From NCBI GenBank assembly GCA_903926075.1, contig CAIYHQ010000133.1:1-64000 (forward strand): a stretch of 64,000 nt of DNA, given 5' to 3'. The notes beneath the pieces are model-generated. The model was not told the origin of the DNA. It searched no databases and worked only from the letters and a program-made list of their open reading frames with translations. Made by a program: the position numbers and the translations under genes. Positions within the stretch are counted from its first letter, which is position 1. The number at the start of each line of letters is the position of its first letter. The DNA comes from an uncultured Methanomicrobiales archaeon. GTDB taxonomy: Archaea; Halobacteriota; Methanomicrobia; Methanomicrobiales; Methanospirillaceae. Positions 43,709 to 58,925 of this stretch are shown in pieces.

Positions 43709-44041
43709 GTACCATATAGCGTATGTTGATGATGAACCTGATCTCCTTGTACTTGCTAAACTTTTTCTTGAAGATTCCGATGAATTTTTTTTTAGATACC
43801 TTTGAATCTGCTGAAGAGATGTTATGTTCAGTAAATAAATCTTCCTACGATATAGTGATCTCTGACTATCAGATGCCTGAAATGAATGGCATCGATTTTT
43901 TAAAAAAGTCCGGGCTCAAATTAGTGATATCACATTTATTATTTTTACAGGAAGAGGAAGGGAAGAAGTTGTAATTGAAGCAATTAACAATGGTGCAGAT
44001 TTTTATCGGCAGAAAGCATGCCCTACCAGCATTATTTATTG
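43709..44041 (+). pseudogene. Frameshifted response-regulator receiver
   Basis: Three frames in sequence rebuild one receiver domain: MYHIAYVDDEPDLLVLAKLF, then LDTFESAEEMLCSVNKSSYD with IVISDYQMPEMNG (phospho-Asp) and IDFLKK, then ITFIIFTGRGREEVVIEAIN and ADFYRQK. A first frameshift lies near 43787 in a T-run and another near 43910. It matches the receiver of the hybrid kinase at 33.2 kb. Non-functional. Confidence 0.8.
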
Positions 44042-45721: not shown

Positions 45722-46444
45722 TCAGAAAAATTGAAATCTCTCTTTGAGAATATCAAGACTTTTCAGCACTTTTTCAAATGTCCTTGATTCAATAATTGAA
45801 TTTGCATTATTCCTCCGGATTGAATCTATAACCTCTGGAAAGTTTATTGTTCCTTCATTTATCGCAAGATGCTCGTCCATCTTTCCATTATTATCATGGA
45901 GGTGAAAATGATTTATAGGAACAGAGAGAAAATCCGTGAGGCACCCGTTTTCATGTGCGTGACCAACATCAAGTGCAAAGCCGGCTCCAGCAATCATTTC
46001 AAGTTCATCAGGCCTTTTCAAAAAGAAATAATCCCAGTTTCCCATATTTTCAAAGTATAACGGGACACTCGTTTCCACTGAAGCAGATAATAGCTCCTCC
46101 TTTGATATTATAAACTGTTTTCGCGAATTTTGTCTCTCTTCAGGCCAGGCAAAATAGCCTGGGTGCACAATTACCTGACCGCCCACATCTGAAGCAATAT
46201 CCATACATTCCCTGGTAACTTCAACACTCGCACGACGTATGGGTTCAAGCTGGCTTGCAAGGTTTACACCGCGTGACGGTGCATGAATAGAAAAAGAATT
46301 CGAATATGACTGTAACGGCATTGAGCTATCGAGGTAATGCATCCCTTCATCCATTACTTCAATTAAACGTGTGAGTGGTGAAAGTTTATCAAGAGCAGTT
46401 AACAAAGGTTCTGAATGGAGACAGAATGTAGAGATACCAAGCAT
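45722..46444 (-). CDS. Sugar phosphate isomerase/epimerase (AP endonuclease 2-like TIM barrel)
   Basis: 240 residues from the ATG at 46442-46444. The xylose isomerase-like TIM barrel shows MLGISTFCLHSEPLLTALDKL, SIHAPSRGVNL, QVIVHPGYF, PLYFENMGN, GFALDVGHAHENG, INHFHLHDNNGKMDEHLAIN and SIIESRTFE. The metal ligands His, Glu, Asp, His of this family appear conserved (VHPG, FENM, LDVGHA, HLHDN). The substrate is unknown. On the same strand and 34 bases after the TrkA-RyR gene, possibly the last gene of that operon. Confidence 0.82.
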   Translation of the reverse strand: MLGISTFCLHSEPLLTALDKLSPLTRLIEVMDEGMHYLDSSMPLQSYSNSFSIHAPSRGVNLASQLEPIRRASVEVTRECMDIASDVGGQVIVHPGYFAWPEERQNSRKQFIISKEELLSASVETSVPLYFENMGNWDYFFLKRPDELEMIAGAGFALDVGHAHENGCLTDFLSVPINHFHLHDNNGKMDEHLAINEGTINFPEVIDSIRRNNANSIIESRTFEKVLKSLDILKERFQFF

Positions 46445-46478
46445 ATACACAATCTGGTATCCTTGTATTTGATACTGT

Positions 46479-48299
46479 TCACCTGGCTATTGTAAGTCCA
46501 GCTTCCTGTAATATATCCGGAATGTTTTTGACAGCATGAAAATCCTTATCTCTTTCTTCCTGTGACAACTCCTCCCACGACACAATGCAGGGATGTAATT
46601 TTTTCTGATTATCGCGTATGCTACCATATTTCCAACCTTTCTCAATTTTTTCCTGCATCCAGCGGGTATGTTCAAAATTTGCTAGGATTGAAAGTTCTTC
46701 TTCTGTGAAAGTAAAAAGCGGGGCGTCCCAATCATTTTCAGGTATAATTGTACATCCTACCTTATTAATTTTGGAAGCTATTCCTTCTGCCTGCTGAAGA
46801 TTTGAATCCTGTATCTCTTTACTGAGTTTCTCCCAGGGGACAAAATTTTCAATTCCGCCCCCAAATCCATTTTCATCATCCATCATCTTTAGATAATTTT
46901 TATGAACCGCTCTTGCTATCTGTTCATAAAGCCCGTTTTCTATCTCCCTGCACCTGCATGTTTCATCTATCAGGGCAAAAGATTTTAAATTTTTGAGGTC
47001 GTTGGAATCAGGGGCCAAATTGCTTAAATACCTATTAATTCCTGTCGTATCTCTTGTCCTAATTATTATAGGAATTGAAGGTATCGGTGACTTAATAGTC
47101 CGAAAGTAGGTATTTATCTTTTCATTCAGTTCAAGCGCCGTGTAAAGGTTCAGATTCTCGTCCTCAAAACAGATTAACATGGAAGCAATGTCGCATTTAC
47201 CTCCCCTGAATAGAAATCCGGCTTCTAAAAATTCCTTTGAATGTATTTCATATGACAGTGCTTCAATATCTGCATATTTATCAAGTGAAGGATACTTCAT
47301 AAGAAATAATCCACGTTTTTCAGATGCTTTCCTATCAATTATGGTGACTGACAACTTCTCTTTTTTTCCTCTATTTAGAGACCTCCATCTCTTTGCTGCT
47401 TTAATAAGGACAGATTCACCCATCCGTCCAACTCCGATGACTAAAAACCTGTTTTTAGGATAATTCAATGCAATTGTATCAATTATCTTATTATTTCGAA
47501 GAACAATGTCACCTGCTCGATCAAATATGTTAAAAAATTCAATTTTAAAATGGTTTTCAATTGCAATTCCGGTCTGTTTTGCACGTAGGAGTGGAGCTAA
47601 CTTTGTATCAACAACATGGACTATACAAGTGAAAGATGTATTTGTTCTTTCATGGACCTCTCGGGCTTTCATTGCAATTTCTGCATTTTCACCGTCATTA
47701 TTGGTAGCAGCTAATAAGAGACTTGAATGGGTAAGTCCCGCTCTGACTAGCGTTCTCTCTTCTTTTGCTTCTCCCTTTATTACGATTGCTCCTTCATCTT
47801 CCCATCTCTCAATTTCTTCATCAGTAGGATTTTTACCTATTACTACGACGTTTTTTCCTTCCCTGCTAAAATTCTCTGCTAGTATTGGCCCTAAAAGATT
47901 CATGCCACATACGATAACATGTTTTCTAAAGAGATATTTAATCATGAAAACTTTGATGTTTTCATGAAAATTCTTGATAAGAAGAAGAATTACCGCTGAA
48001 AACATCAAACATGGAGCGAGAAACCTTGCAACCTGAAGAGAAAAAACGGGAGGTGAAACAGTTAGTTTATAATTAATTAAAAATAACTGCATAGTCGTAT
48101 AGATAATATCAATTATTTGCTTATTCTCTCCAATTTTTGCATATGACTCGCGGTATCCAATAAATCCCAGTAAAAATGCAATAACCCACATTGAAGCAAA
48201 AAGAATTGTAGAATGGTCCTTGATGAAAGGACGTATCTTCTTACGATAATATTGAATCCAGGTTACAGTCTTATAATTGTTTTCTTCGTTTTTCTTCAT
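46479..48299 (-). CDS. Membrane TrkA-N protein with C-terminal RyR domains (putative gated ion channel)
   Basis: 606 residues. Hydrophobic segments at about 31-50 and 91-110, with a semi-hydrophobic pore-loop-like stretch between (62-82), so channel-like topology; the K+ filter GYG is absent. TrkA-N/Rossmann domains begin at 126 (HVIVCGMNLLGPILAE) and 284 (RFLVIGVGRMGESV). The C-terminus has a two-part RyR region: about 455-518 (LYEQIARAVHKNYL ... NLQQAEGIASKINKVG) and 532-602 (ILANFEHTRWMQEKIEKGW, KLHPCIVSWEEL). RyR domains in prokaryotes are proposed nucleotide-ligand sensors. Its neighbour encodes the same RyR pair plus a nucleotide synthetase. Confidence 0.82.
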   Translation of the reverse strand: MKKNEENNYKTVTWIQYYRKKIRPFIKDHSTILFASMWVIAFLLGFIGYRESYAKIGENKQIIDIIYTTMQLFLINYKLTVSPPVFSLQVARFLAPCLMFSAVILLLIKNFHENIKVFMIKYLFRKHVIVCGMNLLGPILAENFSREGKNVVVIGKNPTDEEIERWEDEGAIVIKGEAKEERTLVRAGLTHSSLLLAATNNDGENAEIAMKAREVHERTNTSFTCIVHVVDTKLAPLLRAKQTGIAIENHFKIEFFNIFDRAGDIVLRNNKIIDTIALNYPKNRFLVIGVGRMGESVLIKAAKRWRSLNRGKKEKLSVTIIDRKASEKRGLFLMKYPSLDKYADIEALSYEIHSKEFLEAGFLFRGGKCDIASMLICFEDENLNLYTALELNEKINTYFRTIKSPIPSIPIIIRTRDTTGINRYLSNLAPDSNDLKNLKSFALIDETCRCREIENGLYEQIARAVHKNYLKMMDDENGFGGGIENFVPWEKLSKEIQDSNLQQAEGIASKINKVGCTIIPENDWDAPLFTFTEEELSILANFEHTRWMQEKIEKGWKYGSIRDNQKKLHPCIVSWEELSQEERDKDFHAVKNIPDILQEAGLTIAR

Positions 48300-48329
48300 A
48301 TTAAAGTAACCACTTTTAATAAGGATTTT

Positions 48330-49862
48330 CTAAATTTGAATTTCTATCTCTTCATATAATTCAAACCCGACTGAAGCAAGGATCTCAGGAATACGCCTCA
48401 CAGCATTTCGGTCATATTCACGCATCGTATCCGGTAAATCCTTCCATGGAATTATATTTGGGTTCTCCTTCTTAACAATATCCTTTTTTTCACCATATCT
48501 CCAGCCATTAAGAAGTCTTTCTGCATTCCACCTTCCATGTTCCATCTTTGCGAGAATTTCAACTTCGTCATTCGTAAACTCGATAATTTTTATCCTTTCT
48601 TTTGGTGTTTGCCGTACTTTATATCCGATATGAGAAATTTTTTCCCAGATATGCTGGGCTTGTGCCCGGTTAGACGATTTCAGACTTTCAGGTAGAATGT
48701 CCCAGTCCAGAAATGATGATTCCGTCGAGTGCCTGGTAAGCCTCGTCCATTCATCTGTCTGATAGTTTTGATGGATTGTCTTTGCAATTTCCTCTCTCTC
48801 TTCAAACGGGACTTCACTTATGCCACTTCCGATATATGCCCGCAACGTTTCTGTATCATTTGGAATAAAGCTTAAATTCTCATCTTGAGACCAGTCTTTA
48901 TTCCTGAAGAGAGGTGCAAACCCTCTTGAAGTAAAAGCAATAATACCTACTTTTGCACCAAATGCAAGGCTTATGCAGTATTCAATCTCAATCTCCTCTC
49001 CCCCTGAAAACCCGATTAACTTAACCTCCCCAGGATTTATCCCTGATGCTATTAAGTCTGCCCAGTAACTGATAACGATTTCAGGTTCAAAAGATTTGGT
49101 TTCTTTAATTAAAGAAAGTGAAATAGAACCATCAGATATGGAAAAATTGCTGGAATTTAAAGAAGAATACTTATATAAAACAAGATTCTCTTTGTAATTC
49201 TTTAGTAATATTTTTGCTATTTCAGAAATATCATTGATAGGGCCATGAAGGATGACAGATCCCCGATAATCTGAAAATGACGTGATAATAAAACTTTCAA
49301 GTTCTTTTGTTTCAATTTGTGACTTAAAAATGTTATTGCAGGTGATAATAATAACCGGCCCCTTTATTACCGGATTCAAGGGTGAAATTTCAGGAATCTC
49401 ACTGACCGGGTAATTCACACTATCTATTATTGACCTCCCGATGAGGAGGAGTTTTAATATTGATTCATATCCAGGTATGATTGATTTTAAAGGACCATAG
49501 CGTCTTAGTGAAAAGATAACTCGTGTTACCTGCCATACGCTATGTGTGGTAGAAAGGGCTTTTGCATAATAATTGAGAGAAAGGAATTCTTCTTTAAATA
49601 GCATTGAAAATTTTCCCATGTTGTAATAGGACCATGGGAGTTCGAGTGATGCATCAGCGAGTTCCCTTGATTTTTGGTAAGCCTGCATGATAACCGGTCG
49701 TAGCAGATCAATAACTGACAAATCACTGCTTTCGGGTACCGCATAATCAAGGTGACAGCTAACGGCGTATGGGTCATCCGGGGAAACCAGGAAAGCTTTT
49801 TTGTAGTATTTTGCTGCCAGTAATTCGTCCGAATTCTTGTAAGTTGAACCCATTGCACACAA
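48330..49862 (-). CDS. TPR / SLOG-like / RyR protein, probably the 3' part of a frameshifted synthetase gene
   Basis: 510 residues from a TTG at 49860-49862, but the same frame is open up to 49940 and its upstream reading (FFLEGQNLIKNVIELDPKNS) continues the TPR of the preceding gene, so the true product is probably a fusion. Residues 1-140 are TPR helices. About 168-320 has alternating strands with VILHGPINDISEIAK and GFSGGEEIEIEYCISLAFGAKVGIIAF, resembling SLOG/LSDAT nucleotide-binding folds (tentative). About 358-500 is a two-part RyR region (IAKTIHQNYQ, ILAKMEHGRWNAERLLNGWRYG, NIIPWKDL). 30 bases before the TrkA-RyR gene. Confidence 0.75.
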   Translation of the reverse strand: MCAMGSTYKNSDELLAAKYYKKAFLVSPDDPYAVSCHLDYAVPESSDLSVIDLLRPVIMQAYQKSRELADASLELPWSYYNMGKFSMLFKEEFLSLNYYAKALSTTHSVWQVTRVIFSLRRYGPLKSIIPGYESILKLLLIGRSIIDSVNYPVSEIPEISPLNPVIKGPVIIITCNNIFKSQIETKELESFIITSFSDYRGSVILHGPINDISEIAKILLKNYKENLVLYKYSSLNSSNFSISDGSISLSLIKETKSFEPEIVISYWADLIASGINPGEVKLIGFSGGEEIEIEYCISLAFGAKVGIIAFTSRGFAPLFRNKDWSQDENLSFIPNDTETLRAYIGSGISEVPFEEREEIAKTIHQNYQTDEWTRLTRHSTESSFLDWDILPESLKSSNRAQAQHIWEKISHIGYKVRQTPKERIKIIEFTNDEVEILAKMEHGRWNAERLLNGWRYGEKKDIVKKENPNIIPWKDLPDTMREYDRNAVRRIPEILASVGFELYEEIEIQI

Positions 49863-49903
49863 TGCATATGAATTTTTTGGGTCCAGTTCAATAACATTTT
49901 TTA

Positions 49904-50833
49904 TTAGATTCTGTCCTTCAAGAAAAAAACGGATTTTTTGTCAGATTCATACTTGTTGCATAAAGTGATACCAAGCAAAAGAACTGCAGGTATTGAATTA
50001 CTACTCTTAAAAGGCGATAAAATTCTTATCGTCTCATCCCAGTCTCCCAGTTCAAATGCAAGTCGGGCTGCTTCATGTGCAAGTGTGGCATTTTCAGGGT
50101 CATGAAGGAGGACATTATAAAGGATTTTCAATTCTCTTTTTATCTCATCCTCTTTCATATAGGCAGAATAAGAACTGAGATAATGAAGGAGCCCCTTTTG
50201 AACTCTCAATAACTGGCAATCCGCTTCCTCAAGAAAAGCTGCTAGCTTTCCAATCTCTCTCTGCCAAAGTTCAGGCATTATGTAATGCCGTTTATATGCT
50301 ACCCTGTGACTAAAATCAGCAAACGAGTGTTCAAGAAAAGTCCGTACCTGTATTTCTGCTTTTTTCCCAAAAAGTTCTAAAGGAATTTCTATAGGAACAA
50401 GAGGATTAGGAAAAATACCCGGCTTAAACATAACAATAAAGTGTACTGACCTATAACCGAATTCAGTGGGTTTTAACCTCTCTCTTATATCAACGCTGTT
50501 TTCCCAGTCTACAAGAAAATGATTCAAGATATAGTCAGATACAGCCTTTACTTCCAGGAGATCGTTTGTTATAACCCTTGCTCCACATAGATCGGTAAAA
50601 TTAATAAGAGGATTTAATGATTCGTCCTTTTTTCTCCAGATTTTCGATGCAAAGCTTGCGATGGATTTAGCTCTTGACTGGACAATTCCCAGTGGAGCTA
50701 ACGTGCGAATTGCATTGTTAAGGATTTCTAAAAGTATTCCAGCATAGATTTCATATAAAGGATAGACTTCTTTGTATGCCCTGACCTGGTTTTCTGCCCA
50801 TATTACATCTACATCAGTTACTCTGTCTCCCAA
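49904..50833 (-). CDS. RelA/SpoT-type nucleotide pyrophosphotransferase domain plus TPR start
   Basis: 309 residues from a TTG at 50831-50833 with GGTGG 9 bases upstream. Synthetase motifs: RAKSIASFASK (54-64), FTDLCGARVI (79-88), FGYRSVHFIV (125-134) and AEIQVRT...H...H (159-176). There is no HD hydrolase domain. Residues 210-300 are the first TPR helices. The frame then ends KKSVFFLKDRI after a run of seven T (minus strand; plus 49923-49929); adding one T would join it to the TPR/RyR frame. Predicted to make a (p)ppGpp-like or other nucleotide signal. NUDIX gene lies 14 bases upstream. Confidence 0.85.
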   Translation of the reverse strand: MGDRVTDVDVIWAENQVRAYKEVYPLYEIYAGILLEILNNAIRTLAPLGIVQSRAKSIASFASKIWRKKDESLNPLINFTDLCGARVITNDLLEVKAVSDYILNHFLVDWENSVDIRERLKPTEFGYRSVHFIVMFKPGIFPNPLVPIEIPLELFGKKAEIQVRTFLEHSFADFSHRVAYKRHYIMPELWQREIGKLAAFLEEADCQLLRVQKGLLHYLSSYSAYMKEDEIKRELKILYNVLLHDPENATLAHEAARLAFELGDWDETIRILSPFKSSNSIPAVLLLGITLCNKYESDKKSVFFLKDRI

Positions 50834-50847
50834 AGTCGGATACCACC

Positions 50848-51264
50848 TTATTTATCACCGGCACCGGCTAGATACATTCCAAAATACAAAGAAAACCAGT
50901 CGGCGAGAGGGAGATTTTTTATTTCTGGGATAGGCGTCCAACGGTATTCCTGGTGTTCACTGCTTATAGAGAGTCCGCCGGAACGGATGCTTCCAACCAT
51001 TATAAGGTGAATCACATGCACATCTTCAATTTGTTGTTCAGCTGTCCCTGCAGAATGATGAAGTATAATATTAAAACCTGTTTCTTCCTTGGCTTCGCGG
51101 TAAAGAGCATCATTAAACGATTCTCCAGGGTCAATTTTCCCTCCAGGGAGTTCCCATTTTCCTGGATTTGTTTTTGAGTTGTTTGATCTTTGAAGCAGGA
51201 GGATTCCTCCTTTTTCATCAAAAAGAAGGACCCGGACTGATAGAGCAAATTTTTTTTCTGTCAT
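50848..51264 (-). CDS. NUDIX hydrolase
   Basis: 138 residues from the ATG at 51262-51264 (MTEKKFALSVRVLLFD); the frame is open to 51321 but the extra residues are not family-like. The Nudix box is complete at 42-64: GKIDPGESFNDALYREAKEE followed by TG. The fold and the substrate strand ILLLQRSNNSKTNPGKWELPGG resemble MutT-type or nucleoside-diphosphate-X hydrolases. It is the first gene of the RelA/RyR operon, so it may hydrolyse the nucleotide signal or its precursors rather than clean 8-oxo-dGTP; that is inference from position only. Confidence 0.88.
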   Translation of the reverse strand: MTEKKFALSVRVLLFDEKGGILLLQRSNNSKTNPGKWELPGGKIDPGESFNDALYREAKEETGFNIILHHSAGTAEQQIEDVHVIHLIMVGSIRSGGLSISSEHQEYRWTPIPEIKNLPLADWFSLYFGMYLAGAGDK

Positions 51265-51321
51265 CTTATACAGTTGTGAAGATTTCTTAAAGGAAATTAA
51301 TAAAGAATTCCTTTGAAACAT

Positions 51322-57113: not shown

Positions 57114-58925
57114 ATGTTATCGGGTTTCTCTTCATCCCGCATTATAAAAGCTCTGGGACTTGTCTTTGGAGATATCGGAACAAGCCCGATTTATACCCTG
57201 GGTGTAATCTTTCTTTTCTTATTGCCCTCAATGGAAAATATTCTCGGTTTATTATCATTGATCTTCTGGAGCCTTTTTATTATCATAACTGTCCAGTATG
57301 TCTGGCTCGCTATGAGCCTTGGAACTAAAGGAGAGGGCGGAATAATTGTCTTAAAAGGAATTCTTCTTTCAATATTAAAAGAAGGTCCTCTGGTCCCTGT
57401 TATTGGATTTCTTGCAATTATTGGGATCTCGTTATTCATAGGGGATGGAGTAATTACTCCCGCAATAAGTATTCTCTCTGCAGTTGAAGGTATTCGTCTG
57501 GTACCTGGTTTTGCATCTATCAGTGGCGGATCTCTTCTCATTATTGCTGCCATTATTGCAATTGTTTTATTCTTCTTCCAGAAAAGAGGGACAGAAAATA
57601 TTGCATGGGCTTTTGGTCCAGTGATGTTCGTCTGGTTCCTTTGCCTTGCCGTCACAGGGATAATTTCTATTTCGCATGCACCTCAGGTCCTTTTATCATT
57701 AAATCCATATTATGCAATAACATTTCTTTTAGAAAATGGTTTTCAGGCGTTATTTGTGCTTTCGGCAGTTATTCTCTGTTTTACTGGTGGTGAAGCGTTA
57801 TATGCAGATATGGGACAGCTTGGGCGCGATCCAATCGTTAAAGGCTGGTATTTTGTTTTCCCTTCATTAATGCTCAGTTATCTCGGCCAAGGGGCTTATG
57901 TCCTCAACCATGGCCCGATGGGGACCGTCCTGTTTCACATGGTAGCATCAATGACAGGGCCACTTTACATTCCTTTTCTTATCCTTAGTATAGGTGCGAC
58001 CATAATCGCGTCGCAGGCAATGATTAGCGGAATGTTTGCAGTTGTTTACCAGGCTGTGACTACACGAATCCTTCCAAAAATGAAGATACAGTTTACATCG
58101 TCCGACCTAATGTCCCAGATTTATATTGATGGTGTTAACTGGCTGTTACTTGCTGCGGTTTTGATCATTATGGTGGCATTTAAAACATCAGAAAATCTCG
58201 CCGCTGCGTATGGAGTTGCTGTTGCCGGAAATATAACAATCTCTGCAATAATGCTCATGGTAATATTTTTGTTGAAAAAAGAATCCTTGAAATTCCTCAT
58301 ATCAGTAGGTCTGATTATATTTGATGCCACATTCTTTATTGCATCCCTTACCAAATTGCCTCATGGTGCGTATTGGTCCTTTCTGCTTGCATCGGTCCCA
58401 TTTTTTATAATAATAATTTTCACACGCGGGCAGGAAAAACTCCGGTCAAGCCTTTCACCAATACCACTGGATCAGTTTTTACCTCAATATCGGGAGGGTT
58501 ACTCAAAACTTAATAAAATATCAGGAGCAGCACTTTATTTTATTTCAGATCCAAAATATGTCTCACCCTATGTAACACAGATCTTCTTTGAGAACGAAAT
58601 AATATATGAACAAAATATTTTTGTCTCAATACGGATACGGGACTATCCTTTTGGGTTAAAGACGCAGTATAAGGAAGAATGTGCAGAAGGTCTTTATCTA
58701 CTTATTATTGATATTGGTTATATGGAGATTATCGATATTGAATCACTAATAAGAGAGAGAGGGATTAATGAGAAGACCATCTTTTATGGTATGGAAAATA
58801 TTGTTAGTGACAGGATAATCTGGAAGATTTATGGCGTCATGAAAAGACTATCTCCACCTTTCGTACAGTTTTACTCACTCCCATCAGAAAAGATACATGG
58901 AGTAATAACCAGAATTATTTTATAA
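57114..58925 (+). CDS. kup: Kup-family potassium uptake transporter
   Basis: 603 residues with about 12 membrane segments in the first 440. Family signatures: ALGLVFGDIGTSPIYTLGV, GTKGEGGIIVLKGIL, FIGDGVITPAISILSAVEG, FCFTGGEALYADMGQLGR-like region (ILCFTGGEALYADMG) and SYLGQGAYVL. The C-terminal part (about 445-603) is the cytosolic tail. It imports K+ with protons. It starts 47 bases after the MBL gene and may be co-transcribed with it, which would link the sensor pair to ion balance or pH. Confidence 0.95.
   Translation: MLSGFSSSRIIKALGLVFGDIGTSPIYTLGVIFLFLLPSMENILGLLSLIFWSLFIIITVQYVWLAMSLGTKGEGGIIVLKGILLSILKEGPLVPVIGFLAIIGISLFIGDGVITPAISILSAVEGIRLVPGFASISGGSLLIIAAIIAIVLFFFQKRGTENIAWAFGPVMFVWFLCLAVTGIISISHAPQVLLSLNPYYAITFLLENGFQALFVLSAVILCFTGGEALYADMGQLGRDPIVKGWYFVFPSLMLSYLGQGAYVLNHGPMGTVLFHMVASMTGPLYIPFLILSIGATIIASQAMISGMFAVVYQAVTTRILPKMKIQFTSSDLMSQIYIDGVNWLLLAAVLIIMVAFKTSENLAAAYGVAVAGNITISAIMLMVIFLLKKESLKFLISVGLIIFDATFFIASLTKLPHGAYWSFLLASVPFFIIIIFTRGQEKLRSSLSPIPLDQFLPQYREGYSKLNKISGAALYFISDPKYVSPYVTQIFFENEIIYEQNIFVSIRIRDYPFGLKTQYKEECAEGLYLLIIDIGYMEIIDIESLIRERGINEKTIFYGMENIVSDRIIWKIYGVMKRLSPPFVQFYSLPSEKIHGVITRIIL

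Follow-up and report, generated by a model that had tools for sequence, protein, structure and literature searches.

The 64,000-nucleotide stretch analysed here (the window: positions 1 to 64,000 of contig CAIYHQ010000133.1, from an uncultured Methanomicrobiales archaeon) carries on its minus strand, from 51264 to 46479, a gene cluster transcribed in the order NUDIX, RelA/SpoT, TPR-RyR and TrkA-N/RyR. We asked which of these proteins makes a nucleotide signal, which reads it and what it controls. A preliminary description had RelA making the signal, RyR domains sensing it, a TrkA channel as the output and the NUDIX enzyme clearing the signal. The named domains (NUDIX, RelA/SpoT, RyR and TrkA_N) are present where it placed them, all above their Pfam cut-offs, the RyR and RelA assignments hold in profile searches, and conserved gene order supports a nucleotide-signalling operon with a membrane output. 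The direction of the signal reads differently. We give about an even chance to a scheme in which a signal derived from nicotinamide adenine dinucleotide (NAD) acts through SLOG and RyR domains on two outputs, alarmone synthesis by RelA and a TrkA/RCK membrane protein, and in which NUDIX clears the RelA product.

The RelA and TPR-SLOG-RyR open reading frames (ORFs) are halves of one gene, separated by a -1 frameshift at a run of seven T. A -1 step at this run yields a read-through protein of 834 amino acids that aligns without a break with an 858-amino-acid protein of a member of the Planctomycetota (locus L018; 33% identity over 841 amino acids, E 5e-154), and in a profile built from intact relatives the two ORFs match abutting positions (14-314 and 311-832). 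The fusion is also 36% identical to an archaeal relative (L039) along its entire length, and the rest of the 2.5-kb gene holds no further stop or shift. Collinear with it, six relatives encode RelA-TPR-SLOG-RyR as an intact single ORF: L039 and, in Planctomycetota, L018, L083, L084, L085 and L086. This rules out two separate genes. L018 is the sole relative that came from a scan of genome contigs, the others coming from profile searches. Sampling covered mainly the window's own phylum (392 genomes), where the fusion was found only in genome G070 and the window's genome, with a fragment in G079 whose RyR domain is 75% identical to that of L039, and Planctomycetota, where 5 of the 294 genomes have it, L018 included.

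Programmed -1 frameshifting at the U UUU UUC context is not favoured, because the region downstream of the T run forms no stable structure (z -0.69) and no relative needs a shift; a sequencing error or recent mutation is a simpler account than slippage. We think it rather unlikely that the window copy is decaying or dead, with the frameshift inactivating the RelA fusion so that only the NUDIX and TrkA-RyR proteins still act. Such decay is compatible with any of the mechanisms weighed below, and its likelihood does not compete with theirs. It would fit the break itself, the degenerate SLOG loop and the asparagine in place of a RyR histidine described below, and a second frameshifted gene in the window. 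Set against it are the otherwise open 2.5 kb, the intact RelA catalytic motifs and the whole-length identity to L039, and the break is explained equally well by an error in sequencing the homopolymer or, with lower probability, by -1 slippage at U UUU UUC. The second gene is a response-regulator remnant (43710-43990) with at least two frameshifts, one of them at a run of nine T, a break that does not discriminate sequencing error from mutation.

Gene order around the fusion is conserved, as a co-conserved system would have it. The fusion is immediately preceded by a NUDIX gene in the same orientation, both in the window and in four of the six relatives (L039, L083, L084 and L086). The window NUDIX protein is 32-47% identical to the ones upstream of the fusion in these four loci; the fusion-linked NUDIX proteins are 32-50% identical among themselves and match an unrelated NUDIX protein in L046 weakly. 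The three-gene layout recurs in L084, where NUDIX and RelA fusion are followed about 30 nucleotides later by an AAA-RyR gene in the place of TrkA-RyR. L085 lacks NUDIX; its neighbourhood includes genes for an HD_4 hydrolase and a TIR-TIR protein. Its fusion ORF is immediately preceded by a TIR gene that overlaps its start, and a TIR-NACHT-TPR gene lies downstream. In L018 the downstream gene looks NUDIX-like by eye, has no Pfam match and was not counted. In a poorly resolved tree of RyR domains the window SLOG-RyR falls beside L083 and L039 (support 90/88), and the RelA fusions do not form one clade. A phage or plasmid origin was rejected, as there was no full-length relative among viral contigs, phages and plasmids.

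The RelA domain has the canonical catalytic motifs SRAKS, DLCGAR, GYRSVH and EIQVRT, which line up with YwaC and YjbM, and it aligns with YwaC/YjbM/RelP structures. Profile searches of the window protein and its relatives gave no match to the features of long RelA/SpoT homologues (an N-terminal HD hydrolase or C-terminal TGS/ACT domains), in agreement with the preliminary view of a nucleotide synthetase without a hydrolase domain. The rarity of RelA/SpoT domains in archaea lends the fusion extra interest; a minority of archaeal genomes (G269, G152, G121, G192, G365, G371, G022 and G401) hold RelA/SpoT proteins without RyR, in open frames of 187-366 amino acids. The families nearest to the NUDIX protein are MutT, NudG and NudI (among NCBIfam families, PRK08999, NudG and MutT), so that an ADP-ribose (ADPR) pyrophosphatase is the less likely reading. 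MutT and NudG cleave (p)ppGpp to pGp (PMC5845004), and since these are its closest families we read NUDIX as clearing the RelA product; its place as a conserved upstream neighbour supports its proposed role as an off-switch.

Both window RyR proteins score well above the PF02026 cut-off (56.5 and 53.6 bits versus 27.4) and, as first proposed, share the same two-part RyR region. Residues H75, W78, H100 and D117 of the phage protein RyDEP hold 3'-cyclic ADP-ribose (3'cADPR); 2'/3'cADPR is a ligand of most of the phage RyR domains assayed, which bind or cleave it through these residues, and RyR domains in general bind cADPR-type and adenine-containing ligands (PMC13232231). TrkA-RyR has equivalents of all four with spacing identical to RyDEP. 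The RelA-fused RyR keeps those of H75, W78 and D117 and has asparagine at the phosphate-binding H100 position, which in the other RelA fusions (the L044 fragment counted) is N, S, S, S, R and, in one case, H; nearly all RyR domains compared retain H, W and D of the ligand site. Among archaeal proteins RyR is a C-terminal module on varied outputs (TrkA/RCK, AAA, PAS-HisKA and TPR-SLOG), to which the fusions add RelA. RyR is a probable sensor, as the preliminary description had it.

SLOG was assigned from sequence profiles. For the family the proposed SLOG-like part stands: LSDAT_prok ("SLOG in TRPM, prokaryote"; cut-off 25.4 bits) matches L040 above threshold (6.8e-7, 29.2 bits) and L018 just under it (1.3e-5, 25.0 bits). 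For the window protein it is less secure, as its TPR-SLOG-RyR ORF does not reach the LSDAT_prok threshold and its first glycine loop is gone. In ThsA and TRPM2, SLOG binds cADPR- or ADPR-type ligands. The TrkA-RyR protein has two hydrophobic transmembrane (TM) segments, RCK domains and a RyR domain, with no TxGYG (TVGYG) selectivity filter between the TM segments. It is at most a likely channel; in relative L037 (L037:6645-8378) RyR is fused to a 2-TM/RCK protein whose TVGYG potassium filter is intact. A Kup-type potassium transporter gene lies about 6 kb from the operon (57114-58925).

These observations bear on a mechanism without any NAD signal, which we regard as quite improbable: a stress or toxin-antitoxin-like module in which a toxSAS-like RelA toxin is held by the TPR-SLOG-RyR tail, NUDIX acts as the antitoxin, the TPRs sense a phage or stress protein, and SLOG and RyR are structural. 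The tight linkage of the synthetase to a hydrolase partner, with HD_4 near L085, would suit it, as would the degenerate window SLOG loop, and PMC11782079 describes toxSAS toxin-antitoxin modules. The near-universal H, W and D residues speak against a structural RyR, and such a module leaves unexplained both the second RyR protein and the association of RyR with TIR.

That association was measured in 25 archaeal genomes with 32 RyR loci, most of the genomes holding one to three TIRs. A TIR domain lies within 5 kb of 15 of the loci, spread over 13 genomes, compared with 0.2 loci expected by random placement. Clustering in defence islands was rejected as the cause, as none of 51 loci of a control family, the type I restriction methylase, had a TIR within 5 kb in the same genomes. 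In L040 (5137-9210), genes for TPR-SLOG-RyR, a SLATT-like membrane protein and a TIR-PsbP protein are consecutive and make up a compact candidate system without RelA. SLATT-like genes, below the Pfam cut-off, occur there between TPR-SLOG-RyR and TIR and in L021 near TrkA-RyR.

Several further arrangements were seen around TIR and RyR genes. A RyR protein of about 365 amino acids sits beside a TIR gene in L023, L024, L025 and L028, which come from four genomes of the family and have similar chromosomal surroundings; in L023 there is a PAS-HisKA-RyR protein, and the adjoining TIR is TIR-zinc-ribbon. Archaeal genome G272 (L033:5251-20000 and on; G272:C1:198940-216265) has five TIR genes and a TrkA-RyR gene within about 18 kb, along with a stand-alone RyR protein of 97 amino acids (3.8e-33) adjoining a membrane protein.

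Could RelA instead make the ligand? In that case it would produce a signal such as (p)ppApp or (p)ppGpp, RyR would read it, gate TrkA-RyR and feed back on RelA, and NUDIX would clear it. Such a ligand is conceivable, the more so if RelA makes an adenine alarmone; as a whole we consider this account, on which the preliminary description was built, distinctly unlikely. Most of the RyR proteins seen lack a RelA partner, many being paired with a TIR instead, RelA sits on the same polypeptide as the sensor, as is usual for effectors, and we know of no RyR or SLOG domain that binds an alarmone. In its favour, RelA, NUDIX and a second RyR protein are encoded together, with no TIR in the window operon and none identified in L084; the adenine ligands of RyR (PMC13232231) could include an adenine alarmone; and MutT/NudG-type NUDIX enzymes cleave (p)ppGpp (PMC5845004). 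The ligands known for RyR, the adjacency of archaeal RyR and TIR genes and the sharing of one sensor by RelA and the channel-like protein turn us away from RelA as the source, and because of that shared sensor RelA reads better as an output.

In the favoured scheme, a TIR-type enzyme encoded elsewhere in the genome would produce an NAD-derived nucleotide, with a cADPR isomer or ADPR as the likeliest candidates. The SLOG and/or RyR domain of the RelA fusion would bind it, as would the RyR domain of TrkA-RyR; we read the two proteins as two outputs because RelA is fused to SLOG and RyR and the TrkA protein shares RyR. RelA would then make an alarmone-type nucleotide, or pyrophosphorylate another target, and stop growth, the membrane protein would alter ion flow, and the adjacent MutT/NudG-like NUDIX enzyme would degrade the RelA product and so limit damage or reset the system. 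We infer the ligand, the direction of signalling, the products and the phenotype from domains and context; genomic context makes an antiviral, defence or stress switch plausible. The broader proposal, that in archaea and bacteria RyR serves as a general receptor for NAD-derived signals produced by TIR enzymes and that one such signal here governs an alarmone synthetase as well as an RCK-type membrane protein, is tentative, and we lean somewhat against it.

Several observations weigh against the favoured scheme. The window operon has no TIR, and the sole TIR found in its genome is on another contig. Among the RelA-fusion loci, L085 with its adjacent TIR and L083 with a DUF4062-like gene directly downstream (3.3e-5, 24.4 bits, just below the cut-off) count in favour of the scheme, DUF4062 being a TIR-like NADase (PMC13174449), but they are one locus of each kind. 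The archaeal TIR-RyR loci include several from close relatives, so that the enrichment does not represent independent events and its numbers overstate independence. Most RelA-fusion RyR domains lack the phosphate-binding histidine and so may bind another ligand than TrkA-RyR does. The SLOG glycine loop (SGGTxxG, with small variations), kept in the six relatives, is lost in the window (LHGPINDI), the membrane protein has no potassium-selectivity filter, and the window copy carries a frameshift. The genome's TIR protein (L081:7360-8505, contig C107) is encoded among genes resembling those of purine and folate metabolism.

The features of the locus are listed in the table. The intergenic gaps are 14 nucleotides between NUDIX and RelA and 30 nucleotides before TrkA-RyR. 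The NUDIX ORF opens at 51321 (50848-51321), and the ATG at 51264 is the start that agrees with relatives. The TIM-barrel gene that follows, on the same strand, is possibly co-transcribed with the operon; its protein is probably outside the system, because the gene was not seen in related loci. Base composition of the region (37.4% G+C) nearly equals that of the window (39.4%), and the draft genome totals 3.14 Mb over 134 contigs.

Table. Features of the RelA-TPR-SLOG-RyR locus and its downstream neighbour
Feature	Position in window	Strand	Evidence
NUDIX hydrolase, MutT/NudG-like, intact Nudix box	50848..51264	-	Pfam NUDIX 1.9e-22
RelA/SpoT synthetase domain and first TPRs; 5' part of split RelA-TPR-SLOG-RyR gene; TTG start	49904..50833	-	Pfam RelA_SpoT 1.8e-14; collinear with L018/L039
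Seven-T run in U UUU UUC context; site of -1 frame change	49923..49929	-	
TPR-SLOG-RyR; 3' part of RelA fusion gene	48330..49925 (ORF with RyR match 48330-49862)	-	Pfam RyR 3.3e-15; SLOG by homology to LSDAT_prok-matching relatives
2-TM/tandem-RCK (TrkA-N)/RyR membrane protein	46479..48299	-	Pfam TrkA_N 9.5e-18, RyR 2.6e-14
Xylose-isomerase-like TIM-barrel protein, 28 nucleotides downstream of TrkA-RyR	45722..46450	-	Pfam AP_endonuc_2 8.2e-24

If the broader proposal is true, cADPR/RyR signalling would have a counterpart in prokaryotes, and NAD-based immune signals would be connected to RelA-type alarmones for the first time. The system would join these two separate fields, the off-switch being a NUDIX (or HD) enzyme. 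It would also offer a prokaryotic parallel, on a membrane protein, to the animal RyR repeat, whose own link to cADPR is disputed, and it makes testable the idea that non-animal RyR domains act as receptors for cADPR isomers made by TIR enzymes. The literature on TIR-based systems may already contain RyR effectors.

A match to a known defence system was rejected, as the PADLOC models recognized only the candidates PDC-S33 (RelA) and PDC-S07 (NUDIX) and neither window RyR protein. The nucleotide-centred conflict systems of Burroughs and colleagues combine an operonic generator, a sensor and a SLATT or TM effector; SLATT-like genes were seen here in L040 and L021, below the Pfam cut-off. The likeness to TRPM2 drawn in the preliminary description holds for the logic of SLOG, NUDIX and a membrane protein and not for the family: TRPM2 has SLOG, a TRP channel and a NUDT9 domain in one chain, whereas the window has separate genes, a 2-TM/RCK protein and no NUDT9 homology domain. 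With animal RyR channels the window shares the RyR repeat on a membrane protein, with matches to RyR structures in the PDB, but its protein is not an RyR channel. It resembles 2-TM/RCK potassium channels in its TM pair followed by tandem RCK/TrkA-N domains, with TVGYG kept in L037, and departs from them in lacking the filter and in its extra C-terminal RyR. Like toxSAS and other small alarmone synthetases (YjbM, YwaC, FaRel and CapRel), the window RelA has the RelA/SpoT fold without an HD hydrolase and a hydrolase gene next to it; unlike them, it is fused to TPR-SLOG-RyR, has a NUDIX partner that is not a known antitoxin and bears no CapRel-type antitoxin tail. The phage RyDEP proteins have the same Pfam RyR domain and the same H/W/H/D residues as TrkA-RyR (PMC13232231), but they are stand-alone sponges or glycosidases, whereas in the window RyR forms the C-terminal part of output proteins of the host. 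Thoeris, in which the TIR protein ThsB acts with ThsA or other effectors, likewise pairs TIR makers of NAD-derived cADPR signals with SLOG receptors. The window operon differs in having no TIR, in its RyR receptor (with SLOG) and in its outputs, a RelA synthetase and a 2-TM/RCK protein in place of SIR2 or Macro-TM, while in some related RyR loci a TIR is encoded beside the RyR gene, as ThsB is with its effector.

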